DNA from: Wohlfahrtiimonas populi
Lineage (GTDB): Bacteria > Pseudomonadota > Gammaproteobacteria > Cardiobacteriales > Wohlfahrtiimonadaceae
Length of the DNA stretch: 46,124 nt
Assembly: GCF_002006795.1 (NCBI RefSeq)
Contig: NZ_MVDN01000002.1
Span: 59,012 to 105,135, forward strand
Reading direction: 5' to 3'
Part shown: piece by piece, positions 9,798-14,026 of the stretch
Numbering within the stretch: the stretch's first letter is position 1
Layout: each line of letters begins with the position of its first letter
Translations under genes and position numbers: made by a program
Notes under the pieces: model-generated
Told to the model about the DNA's origin: nothing
Database searches by the model: none
Seen by the model: only the letters and a program-made list of their open reading frames with translations

Positions 9798-9826
9798 TTG
9801 ACACAATTCTAGTTAAATGATTTGAT
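9798..9826 (+). promoter_or_regulatory. Predicted sigma-70 promoter of the metA leader
   Basis: A perfect -35 TTGACA (9798-9803), a 17-base spacer and a -10 TTTGAT (9821-9826, 4 of 6 consensus bases). The transcript would start near 9833, about 26 bases before the leader reading frame. There is no room for another promoter between the leader terminator (T run ends at 10001) and the metA start codon at 10031. Confidence 0.65.
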
Positions 9827-9858
9827 GTAAAGCACGTTAATTCAAGAACTGAAAAAAC

Positions 9859-9897
9859 ATGAATACAAACCAATTTCAACCAATGATGATGCTTTAG
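9859..9897 (+). CDS. Predicted methionine-rich leader peptide of metA
   Basis: A 12-codon frame encoding MNTNQFQPMMML followed by TAG. Three consecutive Met codons (9883-9891) sit at codons 9-11, just before the stop. The likely Shine-Dalgarno element is weak (AAGAA at 9844-9848, 10 bases upstream). Codon placement fits an attenuation leader. A ribosome waiting with the first Met codon in its A site would cover up to about 9896, one base before the first hairpin strand at 9897. A ribosome at the stop codon would cover up to about 9908, hiding that strand completely. The peptide itself probably has no function. No family match is claimed; the call rests on position, the Met run and the alternating hairpins downstream. 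Confidence 0.8.
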   Translation: MNTNQFQPMMML

Positions 9898-10001
9898 AGG
9901 GTTACTCGCTGAGTGACTCTCGAACCTATGTGAGTCACTCTAAAGCGCACCATTGATTGTAGTTTTAATAAAGCCAGAGTGATAGCCGCTCTGGCTTTTT
10001 T
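9897..10001 (+). promoter_or_regulatory. Predicted transcription attenuator controlling metA
   Basis: Five strands form alternating hairpins. A:B is 9897-9907 with 9911-9921 (11 pairs, two G-U, loop GCT). B:C is 9911-9919 with 9932-9940 (9 perfect pairs). C:D, the antiterminator, is 9934-9941 with 9976-9983 (8 pairs, one G-U). D:E, the terminator, is 9970-9979 with 9989-9998 followed by T to 10001. With enough charged Met-tRNA the ribosome reaches the stop and covers A, so B:C and then the terminator form. When it stalls on the Met codons, A:B forms, C is free to pair with D, and transcription runs into metA. The pairings are read from the sequence; the mechanism is inference by analogy with his, thr and trp leaders. 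Confidence 0.8.
9970..10001 (+). terminator. Intrinsic terminator inside the metA leader
   Basis: A 10-bp perfect stem (9970-9979 with 9989-9998), extendable by two pairs into the loop, followed by six T. It lies 29 bases upstream of the metA ATG, so metA can only be reached by readthrough. Confidence 0.92.
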
Positions 10002-10030
10002 GATGGATATTATATTTTGAGGAGAAAATT

Positions 10031-10954
10031 ATGCCTGTTGTTATTCCAGAAGATTTACCTGCAACCCAGATTTTAAAAGACCACGGGATATTTGTGATGA
10101 ATTCAGAGCGAGCGCAAACGCAAGACATTCGCCCTATTAAGATCTGCATCTTAAACCTCATGCCTGATAAAATCACAGCAGAAACTCAATTACTGAGTAA
10201 ACTCAGCAATGGCACATTACAAGTGGATATCACTTTAATGGCGATCGAAAACCATATTTCTAAAAACACAAAACAAGCTCATTTAGATACTTTCTATAGT
10301 TATTTTGATGATATTAAAGATCAATATTTTGATGGGATGATCATCACAGGCGCACCAATTGAACTCTTAAAATTTGAAGATGTGACATATTGGGATGAAC
10401 TCAGCAAGATCTTTGAATGGAGCCGTGAACACGTTTTTACATCCCTCTATATTTGTTGGGGCAGCCAAGCTGCTTTGAAATATTTTTATGATATTGATAA
10501 ACACACCTTCCCTGAAAAATTAACAGGCGTATTCCCTCACATTAAAGAAAAAGAAGATTCTCAGCTATTAATTGGCATTGATGATGTGTTCTATGTACCA
10601 CAATCACGCAATACAGAAAGTGATCCTGATGCTATTCGTAATCATCCTGATTTAGAAGTCATCGCAAGCTCCAAAGAAGCTGGTATTCATATTGTTTCAA
10701 GCAAAAATGGGCGCCAATTATTCATGAGTGGACATCCTGAATACTATAAAGAGACACTTTTATTAGAATATCAACGGGATTTAGCACAAGGATCAACGGT
10801 TGTGCCTTGTAATTATTTTGTCGATGATAATCCAGAAAAAGCAATACAAACCCGATGGATCAGTGCTTCTAGTATATTTTTCCAAAATTGGCTGAACTAT
10901 TTTGTTTACCAAGAAACGGATTATGACTTTACTTCTCAAAATTCTTCGTCATAA
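10031..10954 (+). CDS. metA: Homoserine O-acyltransferase, predicted acetyl-CoA-specific
   Basis: First committed step of methionine synthesis: acylation of L-homoserine. The 307-residue protein has the MetA-family catalytic residues Cys142 (YICWGSQAA), His235 and Glu237 (SGHPEYYK). Position 111, in GAPIELLKFEDV, is Glu. In this family Glu111 goes with acetyl-CoA use (as in Bacillus cereus MetA) and Gly111 with succinyl-CoA use (as in E. coli), so O-acetylhomoserine is the predicted product despite the metA-type fold. The ribosome binding site GAGGAGA (10019-10025) is strong. The gene lies behind a leader peptide and attenuator, which suggests control by methionine supply. No other methionine gene is nearby. 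Confidence 0.96.
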   Translation: MPVVIPEDLPATQILKDHGIFVMNSERAQTQDIRPIKICILNLMPDKITAETQLLSKLSNGTLQVDITLMAIENHISKNTKQAHLDTFYSYFDDIKDQYFDGMIITGAPIELLKFEDVTYWDELSKIFEWSREHVFTSLYICWGSQAALKYFYDIDKHTFPEKLTGVFPHIKEKEDSQLLIGIDDVFYVPQSRNTESDPDAIRNHPDLEVIASSKEAGIHIVSSKNGRQLFMSGHPEYYKETLLLEYQRDLAQGSTVVPCNYFVDDNPEKAIQTRWISASSIFFQNWLNYFVYQETDYDFTSQNSSS

Positions 10955-12985: not shown

Positions 12986-14026
12986 ATGTCTGAGATCAAA
13001 TTGACACAGTACAGCCACGGCGCTGGATGAGGCTGCAAAATTGATCCCAAGGTTCTTGGGCAGATTTTAGCAGGCAGTGGCATACAAACCTCTGATCCAA
13101 ATTTATGGGTGGGCAACCAGTCTCGAGACGATGCAGCAGTTTATGGCATCGACGAAAAAACTGGGATTATCTCAACCACGGATTTCTTCATGCCAATTGT
13201 AGACGATCCTTTTGATTTCGGACGAATTGCCGCGACTAATTCCATCAGTGATATTTATGCCATGGGCGGCAAACCCATTATGGCAATTGCGATATTAGGC
13301 TGGCCTACGAATGTACTCGCACCAAAAATTGCCCGCACAGTGATTGAAGGTGGCCGAGCAACTTGTGATGCCGCTGGTATTGTTTTAGCAGGTGGGCATT
13401 CTATCGATGCACCAGAGCCTATGTTTGGATTAGCTGTCACTGGCATTGTTGATAAAGCACATCTCAAGCGTAATGATACTGCTCAAGCTGGCGATTATCT
13501 TTTCTTAACCAAACCTTTAGGAATTGGCATTTTAACCACAGCTGAAAAACGTGGTCTATTAAAAGATGAAGATAAATATTCCGCTCGTGACATCATGATT
13601 CAATTGAATAAGGCTGGTGCTGAATTTGCAAAATGTGACTATATTCATGCAATGACGGATATCACAGGTTTTGGCTTAATTGGCCATCTATCCGAAATAG
13701 CAGAAGGTAGTGATGTTTCTGTAGAATTATTTAGTGACGCAATTCCCTTGATTGATAATGTTCGACATTATGAATCACTGGGATCAATGCCAGGTGGAAC
13801 CTTCCGCAATTTAGGTAACTACGGTTACCTTATTGAGCAAAATAGTATATTTGAACAACACAAACATATTCTTGGTGATCCACAAACAAGTGGTGGCTTA
13901 TTAGTTTCTGTATCTCCAAACCATATTGATGAATTTTTATCTTTATCATATGAATTGGGCCTAAAAGATCTAAAAGCTATAGGGCAAATTATTCCTACAA
14001 AAGAATATCGGATTTACCCTAAGTAA
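12986..14026 (+). CDS. selD: Selenophosphate synthase, predicted selenoprotein (UGA at codon 15)
   Basis: Makes selenophosphate from selenide and ATP, the selenium donor for selenocysteine and selenouridine. The frame opens at ATG 12986 (ribosome binding site AAAAGAGAAG) and reads through an in-frame TGA at 13028-13030. The surrounding peptide is YSHGAG-UGA-GCK, the family signature in which E. coli has the catalytic Cys17; the UGA is exactly at that Cys position, so it encodes selenocysteine. With readthrough the protein has 346 residues, the same size as E. coli SelD. A SECIS-like hairpin follows the UGA. Downstream, [10 protein letters not shown] and QTSGGLLVS match the AIR synthase-like fold. 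Conventional gene callers would start late, at a GTG at 13109. selA, selB and selC are not in the window. Confidence 0.95.
13033..13073 (+). promoter_or_regulatory. Bacterial SECIS element in selD
   Basis: A stem-loop just downstream of the in-frame UGA: apical helix 13046-13051 with 13055-13060 (6 perfect pairs, loop GTT within AGGTTCT), supported by lower helices 13037-13041 with 13064-13068 and 13033-13036 with 13070-13073. The apical loop lies about 21 bases after the UGA, close to the spacing in E. coli fdhF, whose loop (AGGTCT) is similar. It would bind SelB. Confidence 0.82.

Follow-up and report, generated by a model that had tools for sequence, protein, structure and literature searches.

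A Candidate Methionine Leader-Peptide Attenuator Upstream of metA and metY in Wohlfahrtiimonas

Leader-peptide attenuation is a textbook mechanism for the his, trp, leu, ilv, thr, and phe genes; control of methionine synthesis has been described through MetJ, MetR, SahR, SamR, SAM/SAH riboswitches, and T-boxes. In Wohlfahrtiimonas populi, metA is preceded by a short frame ending in a run of methionine codons and then by a terminator, which raises the question of whether a ribosome reading those codons decides if metA is transcribed. The locus was analysed within a window of 46,124 nt (contig NZ_MVDN01000002.1; positions are counted from the first letter of the window). Our analysis indicates that the leader is very probably a ribosome-mediated transcription attenuator that senses the charging of elongator tRNA-Met. 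A first-pass annotation had proposed a methionine leader-peptide attenuator here, and that reading is supported by conservation of the leader in 12 of 12 copies from six genomes and by the presence of a second copy before metY.

Leader Frame and Likely Promoter

The leader frame (9859–9897, + strand) runs from ATG at 9859 to TAG at 9897 and translates as MNTNQFQPMMML-stop, bearing out the earlier description of a 12-codon frame that closes with Met-Met-Met-Leu-stop. It sits between metA and a divergent membrane-protein gene. No other of the 1,570 window frames of 6–30 codons (696 on one strand, 874 on the other) has Met-Met-Met within its last five codons. The elements of the locus are the following.

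9798–9826, + strand: likely promoter; TTGACA (9798–9803), 17-nt spacer, TTTGAT (9821–9826) with TG before it (extended −10)
9859–9897, + strand: leader peptide frame; MMML then TAG in 11 of 12 homologous leaders, TGG instead of TAG in one
9883–9891, + strand: regulatory codons ATG ATG ATG, invariant in 12 of 12 leaders
9891–9899, + strand: 5′ side of a closing stem, able to pair with 9938–9946 in the ribosome-free leader; part of the computed fold
9897–9907, + strand: strand A; A:B is 100% paired in 12 sequences
9911–9921, + strand: strand B; partner of A, or of C (96.3% of cells paired; 26–44% when slid)
9932–9946, + strand: strand C (9932–9941) with an extension (9942–9946) that belongs to the closing stem, from pairing counts
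9970–9983, + strand: strand D, the 5′ arm of the terminator and the 3′ side of the antiterminator C:D, from C:D and D:E pairing
9987–10001, + strand: strand E and T run, completing an intrinsic terminator, from sequence, terminator scan, and pairing counts
10020–10024, + strand: Shine-Dalgarno site of metA (AGGAG), from sequence
10031–10954, + strand: metA, homoserine O-acyltransferase, probably O-acetyltransferase (PF04204, 410.4 bits)

The MetA protein is 93% identical to that of W. larvae. Its best NCBIfam model is MetA_acetyl (424.6 bits, below the cut-off of 460.5), and the product is probably a homoserine O-acetyltransferase.

By inspection, TTGACA is present in all six Wohlfahrtiimonas metA upstream regions and TTTGAT in five, with TTTTAT in its place in W. 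larvae. A consensus scan omits the proposed promoter because it requires an A at the second position of the second hexamer; the same scan finds no + strand promoter-like site between the terminator and metA, a weak negative since the proposed promoter is missed as well. By inspection, the leader frames have weak Shine-Dalgarno sites; two metY leader frames also stay open further upstream, so their starts were set by homology.

Conservation of the Leader

The leader lies upstream of metA in all six Wohlfahrtiimonas genomes examined and always ends MMML; the metA leader peptides are MNTNQFQPMMML, MNTLTFQPMMML, MNTTNLQPMMML, MNTTNLQLMMML, and MTHPSALMMML (twice). Each genome has a second copy upstream of metY (O-acetylhomoserine sulfhydrylase; above the TIGR01326 cut-off), with the peptide MKFLFVVEMMML in two genomes, MNLFVIEMMML in two, and MNLLFVIEMMML in one; W. 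chitiniclastica DSM 18708 has the same peptide, which runs on because TAG is replaced by TGG. Linkage to metY is seen in five of the six genomes only, since G002 has the leader and metY on separate contigs. A search with the core DNA pattern ATGATGATGCTTTAGAG, allowing at most one mismatch, gave 13 matches in the six genomes, all within two elements per genome (two of the 13 are the opposite strands of one element in one genome); the reversed pattern, used as a control, gave none in the same six.

The sequence ATGATGATGCTTT is invariant across the 12 leaders, and the Met codons match the product of the pathway to which metA and metY belong. In contrast, the codons preceding the Met run vary (MNTNQFQP, MTHPSAL, MKFLFVVE, MNLFVIE) and differ between metA and metY leaders. 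All four gaps inside the frame in the 12-leader alignment are 3 nt long. Base pairing does not account for the Met run, because in the untranslated fold it faces bases that vary among leaders. The Met-run frames that the first-pass annotation proposed to look for upstream of metA in relatives are therefore there, in 12 of 12 leaders, and on these sequence comparisons such conservation makes the observation a strong one.

Two metY loci show further peculiarities. In W. chitiniclastica DSM 18708 (L099, G001:C1:901380–901536, minus strand), the frame that has lost its stop by the TAG to TGG change crosses the terminator and ends 27 nt before metY; the sister genome G9077 retains the stop of its metY leader. 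In G002, which is metagenome-assembled, the contig stops shortly past the metY attenuator (L103, end of G002:C78) and metY opens another contig (L136, start of G002:C19) with different upstream sequence; a mobile element may lie between the two.

Alternative Hairpins and Terminator

Four hairpins had been described as mutually exclusive. All four pairings are found where they were placed: A:B (9897–9907:9911–9921; 11 pairs including G-U), B:C (9911–9919:9932–9940; nine Watson-Crick pairs), C:D (9934–9941:9976–9983), and D:E (9970–9979:9989–9998, followed by T at 9996–10001), the terminator, which ends about 30 nt upstream of metA. Only neighbours exclude each other, however; A:B is compatible with C:D and also with D:E. 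An additional conserved pairing, of 9891–9899 with 9938–9946, overlaps the end of the leader frame and closes the ribosome-free leader. By inspection this closing stem is perfectly complementary in 9 of 12 leaders; two metA leaders show one mismatch, and the metY leader without a stop has a single G-U pair. In the alignment, 88.1% of cells are paired, an undercount because two leaders are shifted by 2 nt. Computational folding of the leader, which the first-pass annotation had suggested as a check, gave a z-score of −7.1 against dinucleotide shuffles, with none of 200 shuffles as good.

The first-pass annotation had proposed looking for compensatory changes in the four stems; the stems themselves are kept in 12 of 12 leaders, and double changes occur in A:B and D:E, with none in B:C or C:D. 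In A:B, all 132 cells are paired and there is one C-G to U-A change; in the D:E terminator, 89.2% are paired, with outer A-U pairs lost in some leaders and two A-U to G-C double changes, bringing the pairs changed on both sides to three for the two stems combined. In percentage paired and in covariation score, A:B and D:E exceed all 500 column shuffles, although the number of doubly changed pairs is not above the shuffles (226 of 500). B:C and C:D do not beat column shuffles with 12 leaders. Their support comes from conservation against slid controls (96.3% of cells paired versus 26–44% when slid for B:C, 97.6% versus 30–55% for C:D) and from the dual use of each strand.

Folding with a Ribosome on the Leader

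Each of the 12 leaders was folded with the RNA under the ribosome removed and the 3′ arm of the terminator not yet made. With the first Met codon in the A site, A:B (0.79–1.00) and C:D (0.78–0.99) form in all 12; in the window metA leader, C:D appears only from a stall at this codon and is 0.00 from one at the second. With the ribosome at the stop codon, C:D is at most 0.05 in 10 leaders; the other two, at 0.29 and 0.31, are the metY leaders from G005 and G002, both with an A-C mismatch in B:C. The prediction that a starved ribosome frees strand A and a ribosome at the stop codon hides it is thus reproduced in silico, in 12 of 12 leaders when stalled and cleanly at the stop in 10. Without a ribosome, C:D is at most 0.01 in eight leaders and 0.27, 0.46, 0.99, and 0.99 in four metA leaders.

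A wider measure, the pairing of the 5′ arm of the terminator with anything upstream, was compared between the first Met codon and the stop codon and set against 200 shuffles. In 10 of 12 leaders this contrast is larger than in 194 or more of the 200 shuffles. It is weak in two metA leaders, those from G9077 and W. chitiniclastica, where the measure falls at the stop from 0.99 only as far as 0.74 and 0.71, and where 12 and 7 of the shuffles, respectively, do equally well. When full-length RNA is folded at equilibrium, the terminator dominates whatever the ribosome state, so the switch must be kinetic, acting during transcription. The proven his and thr leaders of E. coli behave alike: as full-length RNA they give a terminator probability of 0.96–0.97 both at the stall and at the stop.

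Proposed Mechanism and Alternatives

We propose that RNA polymerase would start near 9833 and that a ribosome would translate the 12-codon leader. When Met-tRNA is ample, the ribosome would reach the stop codon and cover strand A; B would then pair with C, leaving D free, so that the D:E terminator could form and transcription would end before metA. When Met-tRNA is scarce, the ribosome would pause once the first internal Met codon occupies the A site, its front edge just before strand A; A:B would form, the released C would pair with D before E exists, and polymerase would enter metA. The same leader before metY would place both steps from homoserine to homocysteine under one signal.

It is improbable, in our estimate, that the conserved peptide acts through nascent-chain arrest, the C-terminal MMML holding the ribosome at the stop codon under abundant methionine or SAM and so setting termination, a hold comparable to that of TnaC with tryptophan. 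Such an arrest would be in keeping with the invariance of the last four residues (12 of 12) and with the folding, in which holding the ribosome at the stop shifts pairing towards B:C and the terminator. However, residues deeper in the exit tunnel vary between leaders, 11 of 12 peptides have only 11–12 residues, and uncharged tRNA at the Met codons accounts for the position without a special peptide; conservation of only the last four residues makes arrest the less likely account.

A little less probable still is a leader that senses translation initiation, in which starvation would lower fMet initiation and the untranslated leader would decide termination. Met-tRNA does serve both initiation and elongation, the conserved closing stem is available to an untranslated leader, and untranslated C:D values of 0.27, 0.46, 0.99, and 0.99 in four metA leaders go in the right direction. 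Against this, three extra Met codons at a fixed place would be needless, and the near absence of C:D in the other eight untranslated leaders means termination, the wrong direction for a biosynthetic gene.

The attenuator reading itself, taken with the fact that methionine both elongates and initiates, suggests a tentative refinement. Because methionine initiates every protein, severe starvation should also cut initiation on the leader. The leader could thus behave as a band-pass sensor: mild starvation would stall the ribosome at the first internal Met codon and switch metA and metY on, and severe starvation would stop leader initiation, allowing the untranslated leader to fold shut by its conserved closing stem and to terminate. 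The eight leaders in which C:D is at most 0.01 without a ribosome fit this behaviour and the four metA leaders do not; we consider it possible, with the odds against it.

There is only a slim chance, lower again than that of initiation sensing, that the RNA is a riboswitch binding SAM or another metabolite directly, with an incidental small frame. In alpha-proteobacteria, SAM-II targets include metA and metY (PMC4239095), and SAM-I riboswitches occur in three of the six genomes of the genus. Yet Rfam has no family that matches anywhere in the window (gathering scores) or on the metY leaders of L101 and L102 (E up to 1), which makes a riboswitch less likely; moreover, the Met codons never change, even though their opposing bases in the untranslated fold vary from leader to leader. 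(A Phe_leader match in L102, with 28 bits against a cut-off of 55, lies away from the leader and was rejected.) Least probable of all is a plain terminator with a chance frame and no regulation: a triple ATG is a simple repeat, short frames are common, and one out-of-frame Met-triplet frame does stand before a terminator by chance (in L165), but retention in 12 of 12 leaders in two gene contexts, the rarity of such a frame in the window, and the want of any Met-Met-Met frame in 24 metA and 24 metY regions outside the genus or 57 distant metA regions make this very unlikely.

Distribution outside the Genus

An RNA model of the leader (R1) gives two matches of 126–152 bits in each of the six Wohlfahrtiimonas genomes, and the best other score within the order is 37.4 bits. 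Running the model over overlapping samples of the order (32 genomes), the class (369), and the phylum (398), with stricter filters for class and phylum, turned up no homologue outside Wohlfahrtiimonas. Upstream regions outside the genus were also read for a Met-Met-Met frame. None occurs in those of 24 metA loci (loci existed for 30 of 34 metA places), of 24 metY loci (for 30 of 42 places; one of the genes is truncated), or of 57 distant metA genes, a number of which have far less than 400 nt of upstream sequence. Frames with Met-Met arise by chance, as in L010 and L144.

The weak matches were rejected as leaders. One terminator downstream of a transporter gene accounts for both L164 (36.8 bits) and L165 (37.4 bits), which come from two genomes; in L164 it faces a gene on the opposite strand, and in L165 the Met-triplet frame is out of frame in the coding end of the transporter, where there is nothing for it to regulate. 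Other gene ends, free of a Met triplet, gave L166 (30.0 bits), L193 (39.3 bits), and L194 (38.1 bits), L193 containing a frame that ends VLMMSI. Twenty further weak loci of the order (L110–L129) have no short frame with Met-Met near its end.

In two genera of the same family (g3 and g4, which we take to be probably Ignatzschineria), metY stands directly before metA in all 11 genomes, and a different conserved element lies upstream (L144:1334–1485, L147:1334–1485, and L158:1331–1482; on the minus strand, L146:2773–2924, L155:2773–2924, and L157:2776–2927; also L150 and L153). It forms a hairpin whose stem varies and co-changes and whose loop, TTTCTAATTTTTTGG, is invariant in the eight aligned copies; CCAATAAAATTTAGGAG, which overlies the Shine-Dalgarno site and is likewise invariant, could base-pair with that loop as an H-type pseudoknot. 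From its sequence, the element is perhaps an unnamed translational riboswitch like SAM-II. It has no Rfam match at E up to 1 (L144, L145, L147, and L158), and the second metY copies L161 and L162 lack it.

Other Methionine Genes and Their Control

MetJ (PF01340) was found in none of 57 genomes, comprising the window genome, its genus, family, and order, and a sample of the class; the E. coli control was positive. SAM-I riboswitches are present in 14 of 32 genomes of the order, including three of the six Wohlfahrtiimonas, and precede metH and metF in the window genome. With metA and metY reading the charging of Met-tRNA and metH and metF reading SAM, the pathway would be split between two sensors at homocysteine.

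Genes for metH occur in four and for metF in two of the six Wohlfahrtiimonas genomes. Neither was found in two genomes of the W. chitiniclastica group (G001 and G003, each rated 100% complete), which keep metA, metY, and both Met leaders all the same. A MetE-like PF01717 protein of about 346 aa is encoded in all six genomes (partial in G004), in open frames of 346–360 aa in G001 and G003; no Met-run leader that would make it a third attenuated gene was found in the 250 nt before it in any of the six.

Elsewhere in the window, a selD frame (12986–14026) has an in-frame TGA at 13028–13030, presumably the position of Cys or Sec in other SelD proteins; from its sequence it appears to be a selenoprotein gene.

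Comparison with Known Systems

The first-pass annotation knew of no well-characterised methionine attenuator, and our search agrees: no description of a methionine leader-peptide attenuator was found among the matches listed in the open-access literature, nor in Rfam. A survey of methionine control in Proteobacteria covers MetJ, MetR, SahR, SamR, riboswitches, and the metXZ element, with leader peptides unmentioned in its main text (PMC4239095). Passages on methionine in an actinobacterial study report no conserved RNA structures upstream of methionine operons and name the S-box for methionine elsewhere (PMC1262725).

With a conserved leader for methionine, the amino acids served by leader-peptide attenuation would come to include the one that initiates every protein. 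This raises the question of how such a leader copes when the starved amino acid is itself required for initiation on the leader frame. The findings further suggest that the pathway is divided, its early steps responding to Met-tRNA and its late steps to SAM, and that copying of a single attenuator gave rise to a two-gene regulon.

Among known RNA devices, the beta-proteobacterial metXZ element is described as a pseudoknot with six conserved regions, a terminator, and a proposed antiterminator (Leyn et al. 2014; PMC4239095). Like the Wohlfahrtiimonas leader, it serves a two-gene set for converting homoserine to homocysteine and combines a terminator with a proposed antiterminator; it is set apart, as far as its description goes, by the pseudoknot and by a main text in which "leader peptide" and "attenuat" have no occurrences (PMC4239095).

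The regulators that act on a small molecule or a tRNA differ in what they read. T-box leaders respond to uncharged tRNA and act on amino acid genes through antitermination, reading the tRNA directly, without a ribosome or a leader frame; T-boxes have no Rfam match in the window. The SAM-I riboswitch (RF00162) controls methionine genes by termination, and in the window genome it precedes metH and metF, with no match at metA or at the two metY leaders scanned; it senses SAM, whereas the Wohlfahrtiimonas leader is proposed to sense Met-tRNA.

The closest likeness is to the his and thr attenuators of E. coli. Like the Wohlfahrtiimonas leader, they carry regulatory codons in a short frame, follow it with alternative hairpins that end in a terminator ahead of the first gene, and show antiterminator pairing when a ribosome stands at those codons, computed by the same treatment with a different arm measure (thr and his: 0.56–0.58 of the arm at the stall, 0.00 and 0.21 at the stop). 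The order of strands A to E resembles that of the E. coli his leader in particular. What differs here is the amino acid, methionine, which is read at three codons in a 12-codon frame, and the placing of the device before two unlinked genes.
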